Source: Anaeromyxobacter sp.
GTDB taxonomy: Bacteria > Myxococcota > Myxococcia > Myxococcales > Anaeromyxobacteraceae
Reading direction: 5' to 3'
Length of the DNA: 38,136 bases
Assembly (NCBI GenBank): GCA_025360965.1
Contig: JANYBC010000032.1
Span: 1 to 38,136, forward strand
Of this stretch, positions 2,059 through 21,586 are shown piece after piece. The notes beneath the pieces were generated by a model, which saw only the letters and a list, made by a program, of their open reading frames with translations, ran no database searches and was not told the DNA's origin. The translations under genes and the position numbers were made by a program. Numbering within the stretch: position 1 is the stretch's first letter; each line of letters starts with the position of its first letter.

Positions 2059-2856
2059 CTAAGGCGGTGAGGCGTCGAGATCCACGACGCGCGCCCCGGC
2101 CGGCGGCGTGAGCCTGAAGAGTGAAGGATCGACCAATGCATTGACCTCCAGCTCACGCCAGTGGAGCGTCAGGGCGACGCCGGCCTCGGGGATCCGCGCC
2201 GAGAGGTCGGTGGGCACACGCTGGCCGGCGCGGGTGCGATGGACCGAGAACTCGGCGTCGAGACCGACCTGCACCTCACCGCCCGCGGTGACGCGCCGCT
2301 GCCGCGCCGTGAGCAGCGCCGCGCCGGGTCCGACCTCGAGCCGCTGCACCAGGTCACCGGCCCGCAGGGTGAGCAGGACGCTCCCGTCGGCCGGCTCGGC
2401 GGAGACCGGCGCGCCCTGCAGCAGCGGCGCCGACCCGCAGAGCAGGGTCACCAGGTCCTCGGGCGTGATCGCCACCGGCAGGAGCCGGGCCAGGTTGGCG
2501 GGCGTGGCGGCGCCGCGAAGGAAGGTGCGCGTGCGGGCGTCGTAGAGCGCCAATCGGCCCTCGTCGACCGCCAGCGACGCCACCACGTTGCCGAAGAAGT
2601 CCTGGACCTCGATGCGCAGCCGGGCCGGCCGCTCGGCCACCAGGAACTGCTCGGTCCCGCCCGCGCCGCCCGGCGCATCGACCCCGACCCGGGCCCGCCC
2701 TTGCACGCTCACCACCCGCGCCTGCGCCGCCTGCACCTCGGCCAGCAGCGCGGCCGGGTCGAGGGAGAGGTCGGGCGGCGGGAGCCGCGGGTGGCAGGCG
2801 GCCAGCGCCAGCAGGGCGCCGGCGGCCAGCCCGCGGGCGGCGGGCCGGAGGATCAC
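2059..2856 (-). CDS. LolA/LolB-like (DUF4292-type) lipoprotein
   Basis: Predicted outer-membrane or periplasmic lipoprotein of 265 residues. The signal peptide ends in a lipobox 'LLALAAC' (Cys about 20). The body has alternating hydrophobic/polar strands with 'VSVQGRARVGV', 'RIEVQDFFGNVVASLAVDEGRLALYD' and 'LVTLLCG', the beta-barrel pattern of LolA/LolB and DUF4292 proteins, which bind lipid tails of lipoproteins. GTG at 2856 overlaps the TGA of the upstream PLP-enzyme gene (GTGA), so translation is probably coupled. Exact function is unproven; a role in lipoprotein or lipid trafficking next to ExbBD is inferred. The lipobox and overall fold are fairly secure, the family name less so. Confidence 0.65.
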   Translation of the reverse strand: MILRPAARGLAAGALLALAACHPRLPPPDLSLDPAALLAEVQAAQARVVSVQGRARVGVDAPGGAGGTEQFLVAERPARLRIEVQDFFGNVVASLAVDEGRLALYDARTRTFLRGAATPANLARLLPVAITPEDLVTLLCGSAPLLQGAPVSAEPADGSVLLTLRAGDLVQRLEVGPGAALLTARQRRVTAGGEVQVGLDAEFSVHRTRAGQRVPTDLSARIPEAGVALTLHWRELEVNALVDPSLFRLTPPAGARVVDLDASPP

Positions 2857-4028
2857 GCCTGCTCCAGCGCCTGGGTGAGGTCGGCCAGCAGGTCGTCGGC
2901 GTCCTCCAGCCCCACCGAGACCCGCAGCAGCCCCCGGTCGATCCCCTGGGCCGCGAGCTCGGCGTCGCTGGCGTTGCGGTGGGAGGAGATGACCGGGATG
3001 GAGGCCAGGCTCTCGACGCCGCCCAGCGAGGAGGCGCGAGCCACCAGGCGGAGCGCGTCGTGGACCCGGCAGCAGGGCTCGAAGCCGCCCTTCACGGAGA
3101 GCGAAAGGACGCCTCCCCCGCCGCGCAGCAGCCGGCGGGCCAGGGCATGGTCCGGGTGGGAGCGCAGGAACGGGTAGTGGACGCGGGCCACCCTGGGGTG
3201 GCCCTCCAGCGCCTCGGCCAGGCGCAGCGCGGTGGCGTTCTGCCGTTCGATGCGGATCTCCAGGGTCTTCATGCCGCGGATCAGGTCGTAGGCCACGGCC
3301 GGGTCCATGGTGCCGCCGGCGGTGCGGCGCACCTCCAGAACCGGCGCCAGCACCGCCTTGTTCCCGGCCACCACCCCGGCCAGGTGGTCGCAGTGGCCGT
3401 TCAGGTACTTGGTGGCGCTCTGGATCACCAGGTCGACGCCCAGCTTGGCCGGCCGCAGGTTGATGGGCGTGGCGAAGGTGGCGTCGACCATCGAGAGGAT
3501 GCCCCGCCCCCGGCAGGCCGCCGCCACCGCGGCCACGTCGACGACCCGCATGGTCGGGTTGGTTGGGGTCTCGAAGAGCAGCGCCCGGGTCCGGGGCGGC
3601 GCGGCCGCGGCGGCCTCGGCCAGCCGCTCCAGCGGCACCTCCACCACCGTGACGCCGAAGCGGGTGAGGATGGTCCGGGCCAGGCGGGTGGTCTGGCCGT
3701 AGATGGTGTCGGCGATGAGCAAGGTGTCGCCGGCCGCCAGGTGGGCGATGAGCGCGGCGTGGATGGCCGCCATGCCCGAGGCGAAGAGGGCGGCCTGCTC
3801 GGTCCCCTCCAGCAGCGCCAGCTTGCGCTCGGCGGCGATGACGGTCGGGTTCTCCAGCCGCGAGTAGAGCCACTTGCCGTCGGGCGCGTCGAGGTAGGCG
3901 GCCGCCGCCGCCGCCGAGTCGAAGCGGTAGGTGGTGGTCTGGTAGATGGGCGTGTTGACGGCCGGGACGTTCCAGACCTCGTCCTCGCCACCGTGGACAG
4001 CCAGGGTGCCGAGCTTCTCGTTGGACAT
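2853..4028 (-). CDS. Cys/Met metabolism PLP-dependent enzyme (cystathionine gamma-synthase/beta-lyase family)
   Basis: 391 residues, the full length of the trans-sulfuration family. It shows the family's PLP sites: 'YSRLENPT' with Tyr55 and Arg57 that bind the neighbour's phosphate, 'ASGMAAI' (84-90), 'DTIYGQT' with Tyr110, 'ETPTNPTMRV', Asp182 and the Schiff-base lysine K207 in 'SATKYLNGH'. The C-terminal domain carries 'SLGGVESLASIPVISSHR', typical of enzymes that bind a substrate carboxylate. Methionine gamma-lyases usually have Cys after 'YG' in the Tyr110 loop; here it is Gln, so gamma-synthase or beta/gamma-lyase is more likely. ATG at 4028 has GGAGAAG 6 nt upstream. It sits between two lipoprotein genes, so a dedicated methionine-pathway role is not shown by context. 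Confidence 0.88.
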   Translation of the reverse strand: MSNEKLGTLAVHGGEDEVWNVPAVNTPIYQTTTYRFDSAAAAAAYLDAPDGKWLYSRLENPTVIAAERKLALLEGTEQAALFASGMAAIHAALIAHLAAGDTLLIADTIYGQTTRLARTILTRFGVTVVEVPLERLAEAAAAAPPRTRALLFETPTNPTMRVVDVAAVAAACRGRGILSMVDATFATPINLRPAKLGVDLVIQSATKYLNGHCDHLAGVVAGNKAVLAPVLEVRRTAGGTMDPAVAYDLIRGMKTLEIRIERQNATALRLAEALEGHPRVARVHYPFLRSHPDHALARRLLRGGGGVLSLSVKGGFEPCCRVHDALRLVARASSLGGVESLASIPVISSHRNASDAELAAQGIDRGLLRVSVGLEDADDLLADLTQALEQA

Positions 4029-4071
4029 GGTGGCTTCTCCAGGTTGCCGTCGGCGCGGCGGCCGGCGACGC

Positions 4072-4920
4072 TTAGAACAGGCGCGCCCGCTTGTCGAGCA
4101 TGGTGCGGGCTCGCCGCCTGGCCGCGGCCTGCTCGGCGCCGCGCTCCACCGAGGGAGGCGCCGCCAGCACCTCCTCGAGCAGCCGCTCGAAGGCGGCGCG
4201 ATCCTGCAGCAGGACCGCCAGTGTCCTGGCCTCCTCGACGCGCCGCCAGGGCTCGTCGGGGAAGAGCTCGGCGGCCCGGGCGAACCTGGCCCGCGCCGCC
4301 TCGACGCCGCCGCCGGCCGCCGCCGGCAGCAGCGCCGACCAGGCGCCCAGCGCCCGAAGCGGCCCGCCGGCCTCCAGCCGCTCGTCGAGGGCGGCGGCGC
4401 GCAGCAGCAGGGGCAGGGCGAGGTCCTTGACCGCCAGCACCGCGGCCGGCCCGGTCCCTTGCGCCACCCCGAGCCGGCCCACCGCCAGCCAGTAGAGCGG
4501 CTCGGCGCCGGGCACCTCGACCAGCGCCGCCGCCTCGGCGACCGGCCTCCCATCGCGGAGCGCCTCGGTGAAGCGGGGGGCCAGCGCGGCCAGCGCCCGC
4601 TCGGCGGCGCGGGAGGAGGCGTCGTGCGCGGCCAGGGCCTCGCTCGGAAGGTCGGCGGCGAGCGCGCGGAACCCTTCGCCGCGGGCCAGCCGCAGCTGGA
4701 GCTCCGGCTGGCCGGGCCGGGCGGCGGCGGCGCGGCGCCAGGCCGCCAGGGCGGCCACCAACTCGGCCGGTTCGCCGCGCCGGGCCCAGGCGGCGTCCCC
4801 CTCGGCGACCATGGCCTGCACCGCCTCGTTGCTGGCCGCCGCCGGCGCGGCCGGTCCGCCCGGGCAGCCTGCCAGCGCCAGCAGCAGGCAGAGCGCCAGC
4901 CCTCGGGGACCTCGGGCCAC
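4072..4920 (-). CDS. TatT-like (TRAP transporter T-component family) lipoprotein
   Basis: 282-residue helical lipoprotein. Signal peptide 'LCLLLALAGC' gives a lipidated Cys at about 19. The rest is TPR-like: 'LYWLAVGRLG', 'RALGAWSALLPAAAGG', 'ARARFARAAELFPDEPWRRVEEARTLAVLLQDRAAFERLLEEVL'. This follows the TatT family (Treponema TP0956 type), in which a lipoprotein of fused TPR-like helices works with a TRAP substrate-binding protein. No TRAP P, Q or M gene is in the window, so it looks like an orphan T-component, or its partners lie elsewhere. GTG at 4920 begins 5 bp after the upstream stop; GGAAG overlapping that stop could serve as its ribosome site. Confidence 0.72.
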   Translation of the reverse strand: MARGPRGLALCLLLALAGCPGGPAAPAAASNEAVQAMVAEGDAAWARRGEPAELVAALAAWRRAAAARPGQPELQLRLARGEGFRALAADLPSEALAAHDASSRAAERALAALAPRFTEALRDGRPVAEAAALVEVPGAEPLYWLAVGRLGVAQGTGPAAVLAVKDLALPLLLRAAALDERLEAGGPLRALGAWSALLPAAAGGGVEAARARFARAAELFPDEPWRRVEEARTLAVLLQDRAAFERLLEEVLAAPPSVERGAEQAAARRRARTMLDKRARLF

Positions 4921-4925
4921 GACCG

Positions 4926-5777
4926 CTACTTCCGCTTCTTGCTGGCGGGCATCCTTGGCGGCGCCTTCTTCGGCGCAGGCCTGCGGGCCGGCTTTCTCGC
5001 CGGCGCCTTCTTCGGCGCCGCCTTCCGGGCCGGCTTCCTCGCCGGCGCCTTCTTCGGCGCAGGCTTCCTGGCCGCCGGCTTGGCCGCGGGCTTGCCGGCC
5101 GCGGACCTGGCGCCGCCGGCCGGCTTCGAAGCCGGGCGGGCGGCCTGGACGACCCGGGCCACCGCGGCCAGCGGCGGCGGCGTGGGCGGGGCGAGTGGCC
5201 GGGCCGGCTGGAGCGGGCGCGACACCGCGGGGGTCCGCTGTGGCTGGGCCCGGCTGAGGCGGGCCAGGCGCGTTTCCTCCTCCGCCTGGGTGACGTGGAG
5301 CGGCGGCTGCCCGGCGCGCTGCCGGGTCTCGTCGTCCGCCGAGTAGAAGAGCTGGTAGGTGGCCAGCCCGCGGGTCACCAGCTCGCCGCGCTGGTTCTCG
5401 GCCCAGACCTCGAGGTCCATGGTGTAGGCGTCGCCGGCCTCGAACCGCCGCTCCACCACCCGGCCGCGCGCCGTGAGCACGTCGCCGGGCCAGATGAACT
5501 TGACGAGCCGCGACTGGAGCCGCTTGAGGCGGGCGCCGCGGGTCCAGTCGGTGGCCAGCTCGGCGAGGAAGCCCATGCCGATGGTGCCGGGGGCGAAGGC
5601 GCTGGGGAACCCGGAGGCGCGGGCGTGCGGCTCGTCGATGTAGAGCGGATTCCAGTCGCCGGCGGCGCCGACGTAGCGGGCGATCTGGAGGCGGTCGACC
5701 GGCGGCTTGACGAGCGGCGGCAGCTCGTCCCCCACCTTGACGGCCTCGAAGTAGAGCTGGCGTACGTTGAGCGTCAT
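4926..5777 (-). CDS. MaoC-like hot-dog protein with Lys/Ala/Pro histone-H1-like C-terminal tail
   Basis: 283 residues in two unlike halves. Residues 1-145 form a MaoC/acyl-dehydratase hot-dog domain: 'GAAGDWNPLYID', 'GFPSAFAPGTIGMGFLAEL', 'FIWPGDVLTARGRV'. The hydratase Asp is kept (D41), but the catalytic His position reads Tyr46 (NPLY instead of NPLH). Residues about 150-215 are a Pro/Ala linker, and 216-283 are a highly basic tail of 14-residue repeats of the type PKKAPARKPARK ending in SKKRK. Such tails resemble histone H1/HU-type DNA-binding extensions. It follows a second hot-dog gene by 6 bp, suggesting a heteromeric pair. Tail function (nucleic acid, polyanion or acyl-carrier binding) is unknown. 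The reading frame is continuous, so the fusion is real in this sequence. Confidence 0.8.
   Translation of the reverse strand: MTLNVRQLYFEAVKVGDELPPLVKPPVDRLQIARYVGAAGDWNPLYIDEPHARASGFPSAFAPGTIGMGFLAELATDWTRGARLKRLQSRLVKFIWPGDVLTARGRVVERRFEAGDAYTMDLEVWAENQRGELVTRGLATYQLFYSADDETRQRAGQPPLHVTQAEEETRLARLSRAQPQRTPAVSRPLQPARPLAPPTPPPLAAVARVVQAARPASKPAGGARSAAGKPAAKPAARKPAPKKAPARKPARKAAPKKAPARKPARRPAPKKAPPRMPASKKRK
4957..5085 (-). repeat. 42-bp tandem repeat encoding the basic tail
   Basis: Within the hot-dog gene's 3' end the 17-base core ggcgccttcttcggcgc (plus strand) recurs exactly at 4960-4976, 5002-5018 and 5044-5060, a 42-bp period, with partly matching sequence between. It encodes the 14-residue Lys/Ala/Pro/Arg unit. 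In-frame copy-number change is possible. Confidence 0.9.
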
Positions 5778-5783
5778 GGAGGA

Positions 5784-6221
5784 CTACCCCCGCCGGAGGA
5801 TGAAGGTGGCCCGCGACCGGAAGACCAAGACGCCCTGCTCGTCCCGCCCCTCGTCCTCGATGGCGATCACGTCCATCGGGCCGCTGGCGCCGGAGCGCTC
5901 CTGCACGTCGGCCACCTTGCTGCGCACCGTGAGCCTGTCTCCGGCCACGATGGGACGGCCGAACTCGAAGGACTGCTCGCCGTGGAGCATGGAGCGGGTG
6001 CCGAGGTCGAGGGAGTGGCGGAAGCGCTCGCCCCAGCCGAGGGTGAGCGCGAAGGTGGGCGGCGCCACCAGCCCCGGGTAGCCGGCGGCGCGGGCCGCCG
6101 CCTCGTCGAGCGCCAGCGGGTTGGGATCGCCGAGCGCCTCGGCGAAGCGCCGGATGGCCCCCTTCTCCACCTCGTGGAGGACGGGCTCGCTGACTCTGCC
6201 GATGAGCGACTTGTCGAGCAT
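5784..6221 (-). CDS. FAS1-like/MaoC N-type dehydratase-domain protein
   Basis: 145-residue single hot-dog domain. It begins MLDKSLIGR and contains 'RRFAEALGDPNPLALDEAAARAAGYPGLVAPPTFALTL', the pattern of the MaoC_dehydrat_N/FAS1-like family (HadA/HadC-type subunits), and ends with 'VFRSRATFILRRG'. The position of the catalytic His in hydratases is Ala37, which is normal for the structural subunit of HadAB-like heterodimers. The following gene (6 bp away) encodes the likely partner hot-dog. In such pairs substrates are usually acyl-CoA or acyl-ACP thioesters, but neither protein here has the His, so dehydratase activity is uncertain. ATG at 6221; 13 bp separate it from the oxidoreductase gene upstream. 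Confidence 0.82.
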   Translation of the reverse strand: MLDKSLIGRVSEPVLHEVEKGAIRRFAEALGDPNPLALDEAAARAAGYPGLVAPPTFALTLGWGERFRHSLDLGTRSMLHGEQSFEFGRPIVAGDRLTVRSKVADVQERSGASGPMDVIAIEDEGRDEQGVLVFRSRATFILRRG

Positions 6222-6234
6222 CTGGCTCCCTGGC

Positions 6235-7212
6235 CTAGCGCCCTGCCGGCAGGTCGAGGACCGTGATCAGGCCTCGCCGCTCGGTGATGGCCAGCGCCGC
6301 GTGCACCACGGCGTTGGCGGTGGCCGCCTCGCCCGGGATTCCCCCGGGCACCACCGCGCGCAGCGGCGGATCGGCGTCGATCTCCACCTCGTCACGCGGA
6401 TCTTCCGCGCCGAGGGTGAACTGCAGCTCCAGCCGGACCACTTCCCGGCCCTCGGCGAAGGCGCGCGCCACCTGCTGGACGCCGGCCACCTGCCCGGCCT
6501 TGATCCCGTGGCCGTCCTCGTCGGCCAGTAGCGGCGTCAGCTCCTCGTCCACCTCGTCGAACTCCAGCCCGCAGCCGACCGCGGCCAACGCCGCCGACTC
6601 GGCCAGCCCGACGTGGCCCACCTCGCCGCGCTGGTCGGCCGCCTCGAAGGCCTCGGGCGAGAGGCCGACGCCGAGCTTCTGGCGCAGCCGATCGCGCCGC
6701 CCGGCCAGGTCGACGACCCGGAGCCCGCGGACGTGGCGCACCTCGCCGAGCACCTGCGCCAGCACCGCCGGCAGCCTGTCGAGCGCGAAGCCCGGGTTGA
6801 CGCCGGTGCCGACCACCGCCACGTCGTGGGCCTCGCAGAAGAGGTCGAGCGCGTCGGCCTCGGACTCATGGTGAAGCCAGGGCCAGGCCAGCTCCTCGCA
6901 GGTGGAGACCACCGAGCAGCCGGCCTTCACGGCGCGTCGCAGGAGCGGGAGCTCGGCCTCGAAGGAGGAGCCGGTGGCGAGGATGACGACGCCGCCGCGG
7001 GCCTCGATGAAGCCGGCCGCCGCGTCGACGCCGACGGTCAGACCTCCGGCGGGGCAGGCCAGCAGTTGGTCGAGCGTGGTGCCGGCCATCCCCGGCGCGG
7101 TGTCGACGACCGACACCAGACGCAGCTCGGGACGTGACAGCAGGGCACGAGCGATCCCTCGCCCGACATCGCCCAGCCCTATGAGCACCACTGGAATGGT
7201 CGTCTCGGCCAC
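6235..7212 (-). CDS. DapB-like / 2,4-diaminopentanoate-dehydrogenase-family oxidoreductase
   Basis: 325 residues. N-terminal Rossmann fold with 'LIGLGDVGRGIARAL' (about 9-23), then 'VILATGSSF', 'CEELAWPW' and the strongly characteristic 'GTGVNPGFALDRLP' followed by 'GHVGLAES'. These are the marks of the DAP_DH_C group, which includes the NAD(P)-dependent 2,4-diaminopentanoate dehydrogenase of ornithine fermentation and many uncharacterised DapB-like proteins. None of the other ornithine-fermentation genes (oraS/oraE, ortA/ortB) is nearby, so the substrate is unknown. GTG at 7212 (VAETTIPVVL) is chosen because GGCGAGG lies 5 nt upstream; a TTG at 7236 is the longer alternative. It is the first gene after the promoter at 7275-7304 and heads the minus-strand run. 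Confidence 0.8.
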   Translation of the reverse strand: MAETTIPVVLIGLGDVGRGIARALLSRPELRLVSVVDTAPGMAGTTLDQLLACPAGGLTVGVDAAAGFIEARGGVVILATGSSFEAELPLLRRAVKAGCSVVSTCEELAWPWLHHESEADALDLFCEAHDVAVVGTGVNPGFALDRLPAVLAQVLGEVRHVRGLRVVDLAGRRDRLRQKLGVGLSPEAFEAADQRGEVGHVGLAESAALAAVGCGLEFDEVDEELTPLLADEDGHGIKAGQVAGVQQVARAFAEGREVVRLELQFTLGAEDPRDEVEIDADPPLRAVVPGGIPGEAATANAVVHAALAITERRGLITVLDLPAGR

Positions 7213-7274
7213 CGCGCCCTCGCCTGTCGACCTCAAGGTCCGGAAATAGCCGGATCTCCGAAGGAGGACGCACC

Positions 7275-16810: not shown

Positions 16811-19800
16811 TCAGGCCTTCTGGACGTCGACCAGGAACGCCTTGAACTCCGGCGTCTGGATGTTGGCGTCGCCGACGAACGGCGTCAGGGTGTTGGTCAG
16901 GTGTCCCGGCTTGGTGAGCCCCTCGTACCCCCAGTGGATGGGCAGGCCGACCGTGTGGACGTCCTTCCCCTCGATCTTCAGGGCGTGGATCCGCTTGGTG
17001 ACCAGGGCCTTGACCTTGATGGCCCCCCGCTTCGACTTGATCACCACCCGGTCACCGTTCTTGATGCCCCGCAGGCTGGCCAGCTCCTCGCCGATCTCGG
17101 CGAAGGCCTCCGGCTGCAGCACCGCCGCGATGCGCGTGTGCTTGGTCCAGAAGTGGAAGTGCTCGGTGAGCCGGTAGGTGGTGGCCACGAAGGGGAACTC
17201 GGCGGCCAGGCCGAACTTCTCCCGGTCACCCTTGTAGACCCGGGCCGCCGGGTTGGAGAGGGTCTTCCCTCCGCCCTTGGGCGAGAACGGGTTGGACGAG
17301 AGCGGCGTCTCGAAGGGCTCGTAGTGCTCCGGGAACGGCCCCTCGGCCATGCCGCCGAGCGCGAAGAGCCGGCCCACGCCCTCGTTGGTCATGATGAAGG
17401 GCGACATGCCCTCCTCGGGCGGCGAGTCGACCTTGAAGTCGGGGACGTCGGGGCCGACCCACTTCTTGCCGTTCCAGGTGATGTACTTGCGCTTGGCGTC
17501 CCAGGCCTTGCCGGCCGGATCGGCCGAGGCCCGGTTGTAGAGGATGCGCCGGTTGGCCGGCCAGCTCCAGGCCCAGCCCGGCGTGTTGCCGAGGCCGGTC
17601 GGGTCGGCCGCCTCGCGCCGCGCCATCTGGTTTCCGTTCTGCGTCCAGCTGCCGGTGTAGATCCAGCAGCCGGCCGAGGTGCTGCCGTCGGCCTGCAGGT
17701 GGGCGAAGGTGGCGAGCTGCTCGCCCTCCTTGGCCAGGGTCTTGGTCTTGTCCTTGGGGTCGGGGATGTCGGCCAGCGCCTTGCCGTTGACCTCGCGGGC
17801 CACCTCCTCCGGCGAGGGCGCGCCGGGCTTGGCGTAGCCCCAGGGCAGCTTGACGATGGGATCGGGGAAGGTGCCGCCCTCCTTCTTGTAGAGCTCGCGC
17901 AGGGCCAGGAAGATCCCGGCCATGACGTCGATGTCGGGGCGGGCCTCACCGGGCGGCTCGGCCGCCTTCCAGTGCCACTGCAGCTGGCGGCTGCTGTTGG
18001 TGAGCGAGCCGTCCTCCTCGGCGAAGCAGGTGGCCGGGAGTCTGAAGACCTCGGTCTGGATGGCCTTGCTGTCGACCTCGTTGAACTCGCCGTGGTTCTT
18101 CCAGAAGGTCGAGGTCTCGGTGACCAGCGGATCGATGACCACCATGAACTTGAGCTTGGAGAGCGCCGGGATGAGCTTGCCCTTGTCGGGGACCGAGGCC
18201 AGCGGGTTGAAGCCCTGGCAGAAGTAGCCGTTGATCTTCCCCTGGTACATCAGCTCGAAGGTGGCGAGGATGTCGTAGGTCTTGTCGTTCTTCGGCAGCC
18301 AGTCGAAGTGGAAGTCGTTCTCCTTGGTCGCCTCGGCCCCATAGAAGGCCTTGAGCAGCGAGACGAAGAACTTCGGCGTGTTCTGCAGGTAGTTCATCTG
18401 CCCGGGGCGCACCGCCTTGGGGGTCCGCTTCTCCAGGTAGGTCTTGAGGTCCGGCTCCTTCTCGGTGGGCAGGCCGAGGTAGCCGGGGAGCAGGTGGCTC
18501 ATGACGCCGAGGTCGGTGAGCCCCTGGATGTTGGAGTGGCCGCGCAGCGCGTTGACGCCGCCGCCGGGCAGCCCCATGTTGCCGAGCAGCAGCTGGATCA
18601 TGGCGATGCAGCGGATGTTCTGCGAGCCGACGGTGTGCTGCGTCCAGCCCAGCGCGTAGAGGCTGGTCATCACCTTGTTGGTCGCCGAGGTGGAGCCGAT
18701 GAGCTTGGCGATCTCGATGAACTCCGCCGCCGGCACGCCGGTGACCCGCTCCACCAGCTCGGGCGTGTAGCGGGCGTAGTGGCGCTTCATCGCCTGGTAG
18801 ACGCAGCTCGGGTCCTGCAGCGTCGGGTCGACCTTGGCCTGGCCGTCCTTGTCGACCTGGTAGGCCCAGCTGGCCTTGTCGTAGCTGCGCTTCGCCTCGT
18901 CGTAGCCGGTGAAGAGCCCGTCGTCGAAGCCGAACTTCCCGTCGAGGAGGAAGGCGGCGTTGGTGTAGCTGCGGACGTACTCCTTCTGGATGAGGTCGTT
19001 CTCCAGCAGGTAGCGGATGACGCCGCCGAGGAAGGCGATGTCGGTGCCGGGGCGCAGCTGCGCGAACTTGTCGGCCACCGCCGCGGTCCGCGTGAAGCGC
19101 GGATCGACCACGATGAGGCGGGCCTTGTTCTTGATCTTGGCCTCGATCACCCACTTGAAGCCGCAGGGGTGGGCCTCGGCGGGGTTGCCGCCCATCACCA
19201 GCACCACGTCGGCGTTCTTGATGTCCGCCCAGTGGTTCGTCATCGCGCCACGGCCAAACGAGGGGGCCAGACCGGCCACCGTGGGTCCGTGTCAAACTCT
19301 GGCTTGGTTGTCCAGCGCCGTCATCCCCATGGCGCGGATGACCTTGTTGGTCATGTAGCCCGACTCGTTGGACGAGGCCGAGGCCGCCAGGAAGGCGACG
19401 CTGGTCCAGCGGTTGACGGTGACGTCGCCGCTCTTCTGCAAGAAGTTCTTGTCGCGGTCGTCCTTCATGAGCCGGGCGATGCGCGAGAGCGCGAAGTCCC
19501 AGCTGACCCGCTTCCACTCGGTCTCGCCGGGGCCGCGGTACTCCGGGTACTTGAGCCGGTTCGGGCTGTGGATGAAGTCGAGCAGCGAGGCGCCCTTGGG
19601 GCAGAGCGTGCCGCGGTTGACGGGGTGGTCGGGATCGCCCTCGACGTGGATAATCTCGGTGTGGGCGTTCTTGGCCTTGTCGCCGAGGCCGTAGAGGATG
19701 ATGCCGCAGCCGACCGAGCAGTAGGGGCAGGTGTTGCGGGTCTCGGAGGTGCGGGCCAGCTTGAACTGCCTGACCTCCGCGAGGGCCCGCGCCGGAGAGA

Positions 19801-19876
19801 AGCCGAGGGCGACCAGGCTGGTTCCGGCCAGCCCTCCGGCGGTGACCTTCATGAACTGCCTGCGGGTGACGGCCAT
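16811..19876 (-). CDS. fdnG: Formate dehydrogenase-N catalytic (alpha) subunit, selenocysteine-containing
   Basis: 1021 residues (E. coli FdnG 1015). Molybdopterin enzyme oxidising formate to CO2 in the periplasm. It has a Tat signal 'TRRQFMK' (4-10), a [4Fe-4S] ligand set beginning 'CPYCSVGC' (about 50-57) with the last ligand in 'GTLCPKG', then 'NQARV-U-HGPTVAGLAP', where U195 is encoded by TGA at 19294-19292. The downstream part ('GRGAMTNHW', 'VMGGNPAEAHPCGFKW') reads on in the same frame to the stop at 16811. E. coli FdnG has Sec at 196 in the same context. ATG at 19876 has GGAGG 8 nt upstream. Automatic gene callers would split it at the TGA. A TAGCAT -10-like box lies at 19913-19908. 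Confidence 0.96.
19262..19294 (-). promoter_or_regulatory. Bacterial SECIS element after the fdnG UGA
   Basis: Directly after the UGA (19294-19292) the mRNA can fold an upper stem GG-[U]-GGCC (19280-19274) with GGCCCC, closing on loop GGUCU (19273-19269). The bulged U at 19278 and the GGUCU loop are the elements SelB recognises in E. coli fdhF, and the GGU CUG codons sit at the same +7/+8 position after the UGA. This supports decoding as selenocysteine rather than a nonsense mutation. Confidence 0.88.
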
Positions 19877-20068
19877 GCGCGAGACCTCCGAGGCGACTGG
19901 TTGCCGCATGCTATGCAGGCGCGAGCCGAGATCGGAAGGGGTGACCGGAGAAATCGGCCGACGCGGCGCGGCGTGGAGCCGGCGGCTTCGGGAAGCCCAT
20001 GGAGCTGTCGGCCGCGAGAGCGTCGCTTGCGGCGCATCCTCCGCGCGTGGGACCCTCCGCGGCTGCGC

Positions 20069-21586
20069 ATGGTCCAGCTCACCATCCTGACGGGCGCCCG
20101 CAAGGGCGAGCGGCTCGCGCTGGAGCAGCCGGTCATCCGCCTGGGCCGGTCGGAGGACTGCGACGTCCGCCTCGACGGCGAACACGACCTGACGGTCTCC
20201 GGCCACCACGCCGAGATCATCCTCGAGGGCGGCGTCCACCTGCTCATCGACACCGGGTCGACCAACGGCACCAGCCTCAACGGCCGGCCGGTCGTCAAGC
20301 GGCAGCTCCACCCCGCCGACCTCCTCCGCCTGGGCGGCCAGCACGGGGTCGAGCTGAGGGTCGACGCGCTCGGGGAGGCGCCGCGGGGCCGACTGGCGAC
20401 GCCGGATCCGCGCTACGCCACGCGGGCCATCCTCGGCCAGGCCCCGCCCCAGGCCGCGGCGGCGATGGTCCGGGCCCTGGGCCGCGGCGACGAGGACACG
20501 GCCGCGCAGATGGCCGGAGAGGCGGCGCACCAGGTCGCCGCCGAGCGCGCCAAGGCAGGCGGTCGAAGCTCCGGGCAGACCATGGGGATCATGGCCGCGG
20601 CGGTGGCGGCCGTGCACCAGCGCGCCTGGCAGCGGTCCAGCCGCAGGTGGCTCAAGGTGGTGGCGGCGGTCGCCGGGCTGGGCCTCCTGGTGGCGGCCGG
20701 CATGGGCGTCGTCATCTGGAGGCAGCGCCAGGAGATCGAGGCGCTGTTCTCGAAGAAGACCGCCCTGGACCATGAGATCGCGCAGGTCCAGCGGGCCATG
20801 GAGCTGGAGACCGAGGAGGCGCGGCTGGCCGAGCTGGAGCAGCGGCTGGCCCAGCTCACCGGGAACGCCCAGACCACCATCGGAGAGGTGGCCCTGCAGG
20901 ATCGGTCGCGCGCCGAGGCGCTTCAGAACGAGGGAGACGACCTGGAACTCGCCATCAAGGGGATCCTGGCCAAGTTCGACGCCCCCACCTACGCCATCCC
21001 GCCGCTCTTCCGGGAGACGCTGCAGCGGGAGGTCGACGTGCTGGCCCGCTCCGGCAATCTCAGGTTCGACTGGGGGCGCCGCAACCGGCACTGGCCCGTC
21101 ATCACCGAGGCGTTCTCCAGGTTCGGGCTGCCTGAGGAGATGGCCTACATCGCCTGGGCCGAGACCCAGTTCGACCCCGAGAAGACCTCTCCGGCCGGTG
21201 CTCGCGGCATGTGGCAGATGACGGCCGACACCGCCAGGGAGCTGGGACTTCGGGTCGACGCCGAGGTCGACGAGCGGCTCGACGTGGAGAAGCAGACGCA
21301 GGCGGCCGCCCGCAAGCTGGCCAGCCTGCTCTCGGTGTTCGGCTCCGACTCCTTCATGCTGGCCCTGGCCAGCTACAACAGCGGCGAGGCCGGCGTGCGC
21401 CGGGTGCTGCTCCAGGTGGGCCAGGAGAAGGACGGCTTCCGCAAGGAGAAGCGCGACTTCTGGCACCTCTACCGCCTCCGGCGGCTGCCTCGCGAGACCA
21501 TGGACTACGTTCCCCGGGTCCTGGCGGCGGCCGTGGACTGCGGGAACCCGCGCAAGTACGGGCTGGCGGGTCCGGAGGGCCGGTGA
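20069..21586 (+). CDS. FHA domain - TM - coiled coil - lytic transglycosylase (SLT) fusion
   Basis: 505 residues. Residues 1-100 are an FHA domain with its binding residues: 'IRLGRSED' (G26, R27), 'SGHHAEI' (S44, H47) and 'STNGTSLNG' (N66, G67, T68, N71). Residues 100-190 are an Ala-rich linker, 194-217 one TM helix, 218-265 a probable coiled coil rich in Glu/Gln/Leu, and 330-490 an SLT/MltD-type lysozyme-like domain with catalytic Glu365 in 'AWAETQFDP', then 'SPAGARGMWQMTADTARELGL' and 'LASYNSGEAGVRR'. Topology would put FHA in the cytoplasm and the peptidoglycan-cleaving domain outside, so phosphothreonine signalling could control or localise wall cleavage (inference). ATG at 20069. Divergent from fdnG with a 192-bp gap. 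Confidence 0.88.
   Translation: MVQLTILTGARKGERLALEQPVIRLGRSEDCDVRLDGEHDLTVSGHHAEIILEGGVHLLIDTGSTNGTSLNGRPVVKRQLHPADLLRLGGQHGVELRVDALGEAPRGRLATPDPRYATRAILGQAPPQAAAAMVRALGRGDEDTAAQMAGEAAHQVAAERAKAGGRSSGQTMGIMAAAVAAVHQRAWQRSSRRWLKVVAAVAGLGLLVAAGMGVVIWRQRQEIEALFSKKTALDHEIAQVQRAMELETEEARLAELEQRLAQLTGNAQTTIGEVALQDRSRAEALQNEGDDLELAIKGILAKFDAPTYAIPPLFRETLQREVDVLARSGNLRFDWGRRNRHWPVITEAFSRFGLPEEMAYIAWAETQFDPEKTSPAGARGMWQMTADTARELGLRVDAEVDERLDVEKQTQAAARKLASLLSVFGSDSFMLALASYNSGEAGVRRVLLQVGQEKDGFRKEKRDFWHLYRLRRLPRETMDYVPRVLAAAVDCGNPRKYGLAGPEGR

Follow-up and report, generated by a model that had tools for sequence, protein, structure and literature searches.

Histone-H1-like tails have, in the papers found here, been described on bacterial nucleoid proteins, granule-associated proteins, and a topoisomerase. 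PhaF, which bears a tail of this kind, has a phasin as its N-terminal part and not a hot-dog domain. DNA binding by HbhA needs its Lys-Pro-Ala tail, which also suffices for it (PMC10665949); HupB associates with the nucleoid by virtue of a required PAKK/KAAK tail (PMC5676037); and the KPAA tail of AlgP is required for the spacing of polyphosphate granules, with KPAA peptides also binding DNA (PMC9239181). As regards hot-dog proteins, mycobacterial HadB is described as the subunit that holds the catalytic residues, which HadA and HadC do not (PMC11321319).

Here we analyze a protein that joins these two themes, encoded in a 38,136-nucleotide stretch of Anaeromyxobacter sp. (contig JANYBC010000032.1; this whole stretch is called the window). 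The open reading frame lies at 4926-5777 on the minus strand, starts with ATG, and encodes 283 amino acids; the features of the locus are collected in Table 1. By analogy with the tails above, we consider, with a probability of roughly one half, that its tail would act as a polyanion tether on an acyl-thioester-binding hot-dog pair of the HadA/HadB type, the polymer being most likely nucleic acid and possibly polyphosphate.

Table 1. Features of the hot-dog locus and the evidence for each (positions in the window).
Feature	Position	Strand	Evidence
HadB-like (MaoC) hot-dog domain, aa 1-165	5283..5777	-	PF01575; HadB 4rlj_B alignment; AlphaFold model; Foldseek
C-terminal extension, aa 166-283 + stop	4926..5282	-	pI, charge count, pLDDT
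42-bp tandem array, 3.1 copies, 14-residue unit APKKAPARKPARKA	4944..5074	-	Tandem Repeats Finder
HadA-like partner subunit, 145 aa, motif GDPNPLA	5784..6221	-	PF13452 E 6e-38; PDB HadA chains and two-domain MaoC dehydratases
Native-amine-dehydrogenase/2,4-diaminopentanoate-dehydrogenase-like protein	6235..7236	-	PF19328 E 1.8e-21; 7xdu_A E 1.8e-40
TAtT-family protein, downstream	4072..4920	-	PF16811 E 8.4e-25

The Pfam family MaoC_dehydratas matches residues 26-110 with an E value of 9.3e-10 and 38.6 bits, against a gathering cut-off of 27. The single-chain AlphaFold model has 10-residue block means of 88-97 across residues 11-160, and its top Foldseek match in the PDB is the HadB subunit of M. 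tuberculosis (E 3.8e-11); two-domain MaoC dehydratases and HadB are also the top PDB sequence matches of the domain. With the gathering score passed and the fold matched, the protein belongs to the MaoC/hot-dog superfamily. The NCBIfam HadB equivalog model gives 36.8 bits, below its curated cut-off of 203. At an E value of 0.1, Pfam finds only two MaoC/FAS1-dehydratase families in the protein, and neither a phasin nor an AlgP N-terminal domain. A plasmid search gave no match.

The C-terminal extension begins within a predicted helix (residues 164-177), which is followed by a Pro/Ala-rich linker and then by the Lys/Ala/Pro tail. From residue 181 on, the pLDDT block means are 46-74 and the model contains neither helix nor strand, so that the long disordered Lys/Ala/Pro-repeat tail of AlgP/PhaF-type proteins is present here. 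The extension has a pI of 12.0, with 16 Lys and 17 Arg against 3 Glu, while residues 211-283 contain 16 Lys, 10 Arg, and no Asp or Glu; the net charge of the tail is +26. Tandem Repeats Finder scores the 42-bp array at 185, with 85% matches, and the three in-register copies of the unit read APKKAPARKPARKA, APKKAPARKPARRP, and APKKAPPRMPASKK. In the tail DNA, the identity at lag 42 is 0.655. Shuffling of these codons gives 0.407 on average, and none of 2000 shuffles reaches 0.655, whether at this lag or at any other codon lag between 12 and 87. The Pfam match, the repeat array, and the codon-shuffle test thus bear out the preliminary description of a MaoC hot-dog protein with a Lys/Ala/Pro tail encoded by 42-bp repeats.

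Lysine makes up 22% of residues 211-283. In 202 other predicted genes the figure is 2.6%, so that the tail exceeds the genome average roughly eightfold. Within 305 kb of the same genome, a comparable 50-residue Lys/Ala/Pro segment occurs in two of 203 predicted genes, the present gene included; the gene set is approximate, having been called by GC phase, and an overlong start assigned to a gene at 2853-4553 caused the TAtT gene to be missed. By the softer measure of a net charge of +4 or more over the last 15 residues, 18 of the 203 genes qualify, and a modestly basic end by itself is not rare in this genome. The possibility that such tails are a general habit of the genome was rejected, as the best further match of a tail-only search is weak (E 0.0046) and the census holds one other similar segment.

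Among 17 draft genomes of the family, 10 have a contig that terminates within the tail or directly at its edge, against 0.55 expected; this count leaves out the genome studied here, which is unbroken, and G023, which had no match. Tails are accordingly under-represented in the sample, and short-read assemblies give uncertain repeat numbers. An inverted repeat, GGCGCC-TTCTTC-GGCGCC, lies within the repeat codons at 5002-5019 and is a possible cause of assembly breaks in the gene.

Homologues were collected at several depths. A protein search matched 57 of 60 genomes, the source genome included, with weak matches in a few. GTDB genomes yielded 289 loci; among the best 80, which were kept, the closest come from Myxococcales MAGs and Anaeromyxobacter. 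When a profile was run across the phylum, 81 of 97 genomes had matches at E 1e-8 or better, some of the matches being other MaoC proteins, and 29 further loci were hand-picked from this search. In a quick tree, the proteins from myxobacteria group in a single clade (99 rows) with an SH-aLRT value of 88, which lies below the 95 mark and is suggestive support, the tree having many open forks. Two pairs of rows (L081/L229 and L096/L222) have identical cores and possibly represent the same genomes counted twice.

Once the 12 clade rows cut by a contig end are left out, 82 of 87 complete members continue for 20 or more residues past the domain, and 81 of these 82 extensions end in a basic stretch, with a net charge of +3 to +10 over the last 15 residues. 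The preliminary description had named a uniform absence of the tail from homologues as counting against it; the reverse is seen. Under an alternative definition (20 or more residues, with a net charge of +4 or more in the last 25), the basic end is partly a matter of definition. The 81 basic-ended tails are 29-219 residues long and have total charges from -5 to +58, 13 of them at zero or below. The six complete proteins without a basic tail are L135 and L136, by title from termite-gut Cystobacterineae (L044, on a contig of the same length as that of L136, comes from a genome listed at 2.7 Mb); L207, L219, and L225, from family f26 with genomes listed at 1.7-1.8 Mb; and L202, the only extension without a basic end, whose lysine-rich stretch is interrupted by a run of N, beyond which the frame is apparently shifted. 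All complete homologues outside the clade, which comprise rokubacterial sequences (L139-L144) and distant homologues (L220, L221, L226-L228), are tail-less, and the five complete rokubacterial ones stop at the end of the domain. Tail presence requires three changes, both on the full quick tree and on a second tree without 12 rows, mostly long branches. Three changes would fit one gain and two losses, the losses lying in small-genome lineages where the size is known, with a direction that the tree itself does not give.

The tail evolves fast: across 10 selected pairs of relatives, identity is 62-98% in the core and 35-77% in the tail, so that composition and basic end are kept while the sequence drifts. 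The repeat unit and the tail length differ between lineages, the unit being APKKAPARKPARKA in the window, KKKVA in L208, KKKPAA in L218, PEAKKPEPKK in L204, and KPAPA in L203. Extreme cases are the (KPKPVKK)n tails of L096/L222 and the (KPAPA)n tail of L203, which runs off the contig inside the repeat. At least five Lys are found in the last 25 residues of 52 of 62 HadB-like proteins, against two of 202 background genes, and the HadA partners at the same 62 loci have at most three. In Myxococcus and in Corallococcus and its kin, the tails are short and overall neutral, with only a terminal basic cluster; the M. xanthus orthologue (L109), for example, has a shorter tail than the window protein. 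The core of L110, from a record titled Comamonas sp. KCTC 72670, groups with Myxococcus on a zero-length branch, and this record is probably mislabelled or a contaminated assembly.

The residues that carry out catalysis in HadB are only partly retained. The GDxNPxH motif of HadB reads GDWNPLY in the window protein (residues 40-46), where Asp41 is kept and Tyr46 replaces the catalytic His, while the partner has Ala at the same place. The His is absent in 22 of 50 first-round loci and in 17 of 23 within the family of the window; over the 99-row clade, it is kept in 74 and absent in 25, and Asp41 is kept in 96. Neither subunit has the His at 20 of the 79 loci with letters on both sides. The split between His and non-His requires at least eight or at least seven changes on two larger trees built without the catalytic column, and a minimum of five on a smaller tree in which that column was kept. 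Position 63 is Pro in 85 and His in 12 of the 99 rows, the AHG of Rokubacteria and HadB being APG in most of the clade. Long tails occur both with and without the catalytic His.

Since the His is replaced in both the HadB-like protein and its partner, an ordinary (R)-hydratase/dehydratase function is probably not to be expected for the pair in this lineage, judging from the motifs, although most relatives, which keep the His, may be active enzymes. Of the metabolic-type hot-dog domain previously proposed, the fold holds, and is HadB-like, while ordinary catalysis has become doubtful.

The gene for the HadA-like subunit lies upstream and ends 6 bp before the HadB-like gene, so that a HadA-type partner stands alongside, as for HadB. 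A HadA match was found at all 75 non-rokubacterial loci of the first locus set, the window included, and a separate one at 27 of the 29 loci from the phylum search. At the tail-less, small-genome loci L207 and L219 of family f26, the HadA query matched only the HadB-like gene itself, with no separate adjacent partner, and tail and partner may have been lost jointly there. The amine-dehydrogenase-like gene was found at 70 of the 75 loci of the first set and at five of the 29 from the phylum search (L222-L224, L229, L230), all from the order of the window, and is thus a neighbour in near relatives only; the genes around the pair appear to differ in other families, as judged by eye from their first residues. 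The TAtT gene is near the pair in some relatives only, and is perhaps in one transcription unit with it in the window.

The genome was also surveyed for possible targets and roles. The PHA synthase model PhaC_N has no match in the source genome, whose completeness is listed as 100%, and among 14 control genomes matches Caulobacter only; PHA granules, one of the targets proposed at the outset, are accordingly unlikely. A polyphosphate kinase gene is present, which leaves polyphosphate a possible target. The pair was rejected as a replacement for FabZ, as the genome has a gene of the FabA/FabZ family (PF07977, E 3.2e-34) and the pair is therefore probably not needed for ordinary fatty-acid synthesis. 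It was likewise rejected as a missing 3-aminobutyryl-CoA ammonia lyase, for which the genome has a dedicated enzyme above the curated cut-off. That enzyme is part of a lysine-degradation cluster on contig C184 (L171, 8712-12825), together with lysine 5,6-aminomutase subunits and a protein similar to the 3-keto-5-aminohexanoate cleavage enzyme, which is below the curated cut-off. The KamB model NF052386 had no match here, and the controls were likewise blank, which makes this search uninformative. Elsewhere in the window, a formate-dehydrogenase-like alpha subunit, recognized by eye, is encoded at 16811-20101 on the minus strand with one in-frame TGA at 19292-19294. The Rfam element SECIS_3 at 19239-19297 (76.9 bits, gathering 63) encloses this TGA, so that the product is very probably a selenoprotein, which simple lists of open reading frames break up.

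On the basis of gene pairing and homology, the protein would be the HadB-like subunit in a hot-dog heterodimer of the HadA/HadB type. In the tether reading, Lys and Arg would make many weak, sequence-independent contacts with an abundant anionic polymer and so hold this dimer there; the polymer would most likely be the nucleoid or RNA, and possibly polyphosphate. The hot-dog pair would presumably still bind an acyl thioester, and in the lineage of the window catalysis would have been lost. Given the Lys/Pro/Ala tails of HbhA, HupB, and AlgP, an anionic-polymer tether, with nucleic acid first, appears the likeliest reading, and polyanion binding by the tail would fit these well-studied analogues. 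The chief difficulty is posed by the short, overall neutral tails of Myxococcus and Corallococcus, those of Corallococcus and its kin fitting a histone-like mode poorly; such tails could represent either a weaker tether or an ancestral short contact that was amplified later in some lines. The interpretation first offered is thus partly upheld: the tail is widespread in the clade and binding to polyanions agrees with the analogues, whereas the PHA granules have lost ground and ordinary catalysis is in doubt.

The main rival, which we regard as unlikely, is a docking arm that would bind an acidic protein, such as acyl carrier protein or the amine-dehydrogenase-like neighbour, and thereby help the dehydratase to capture its substrate. 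Acyl-ACP is the substrate of HadAB enzymes, and acyl carrier proteins are acidic. The neighbour is acidic as well (net charge -21, pI 4.7), opposite to the tail, and the C-terminus is basic in all 60 complete proteins beside which its gene was detected; of nine without it, seven are non-basic and the remaining two are located at contig ends. A coupling of the tail to this gene was dropped, however: in other families the gene is missing next to 13 complete tailed proteins whose loci cover 1.3 kb or more upstream of HadA (for a fourteenth, L211, the sequence ends too soon to decide), and the link between tail and neighbour looks therefore like descent. Moreover, the longest and most highly charged tails seem beyond the needs of docking, and the loss of the catalytic His from the window protein argues against a role in dehydratase capture. 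Distinctly less probable is binding specific to polyphosphate, with the pair placed on polyphosphate granules in the manner of AlgP. This would agree with the polyphosphate kinase gene of the genome, with the location of AlgP on such granules (PMC9239181) and with the mapping of polyphosphate binding by E. coli YihI and Rnr to lysine-rich sequences (PMC12345225). The kinase is widespread, however, being present in seven of 14 control genomes, and nothing favours polyphosphate over nucleic acid.

Two further explanations dispense with a polymer. The pair may be an enzyme with altered chemistry, such as an aminoacyl-thioester lyase next to the amine dehydrogenase, the tail serving only stability or solubility. 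Asp41 is indeed almost always retained, and the neighbour is akin to native amine dehydrogenases, of which a group G1 enzyme from Myxococcus llanfairpwll... is reported to be active on 2,4-diaminopentanoate, the ketone substrates of G1 being unknown (PMC11164908). The locus from the same Myxococcus species, L088, has the same gene order as the window. We consider this very unlikely, as the ammonia lyase of the lysine-degradation cluster already fills that role and the dehydrogenase was not found beside the pair outside near relatives. The most improbable reading is that the tail is of low complexity and without function, having arisen merely as replication slipped in GC-rich DNA. Slippage would give lineage-specific repeat units such as those observed, and the excess of contig ends at the tail marks the DNA as awkward, but slippage alone would hardly keep the basic end through 81 of 82 extensions or yield successive lysine repeats, and lysine, with its AAA and AAG codons, is strongly enriched here despite the GC-rich DNA.

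A tail common to most of the clade, and basic despite the turnover of its repeats, suggests that the positioning of a lipid-metabolism fold on an anionic polymer has been selected for. As a speculative extension of the tether reading, and a rather improbable one, the myxobacterial heterodimer might be an acyl-thioester binder held on the nucleoid (or polyphosphate) by the tail, which would couple chromosome organization to the lipid or CoA status, with the Anaeromyxobacter branch having become a pure binding protein after the His was lost in both subunits.

Comparison with the known systems shows that the parts have precedents. AlgP and PhaF of Pseudomonas share the long disordered Lys/Pro/Ala-repeat C-terminus and the histone-H1-like composition, the repeat number of AlgP being variable, but the N-terminal part of AlgP is predicted to be helical and not a hot-dog domain. 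HupB and HbhA of mycobacteria have Lys/Pro/Ala tails with AKKA or PAKK motifs that carry DNA binding there; their carrier domains are HU-like and a coiled coil, respectively, whereas the carrier in the window is an enzyme-type fold. No paper pairing MaoC proteins with the nucleoid or with lysine-rich tails was found among open-licence papers, and the combination of a hot-dog dehydratase fold with a histone-H1-like tail was likewise not found in this literature. With mycobacterial HadB of HadAB/HadBC (4rlj, 5zy8), the window protein shares the hot-dog fold, the HadA-type partner gene, and the Asp and Asn of the motif; it differs in the Tyr at the place of the catalytic His, the equivalog score below the cut-off, and the 118-residue basic extension. 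The steroid hydratase ChsH1-ChsH2 is also a MaoC heterodimer, in which ChsH2 lacks the catalytic His; it is described as an efficient hydratase, whereas in the window both subunits are without the His (PMC11321319).
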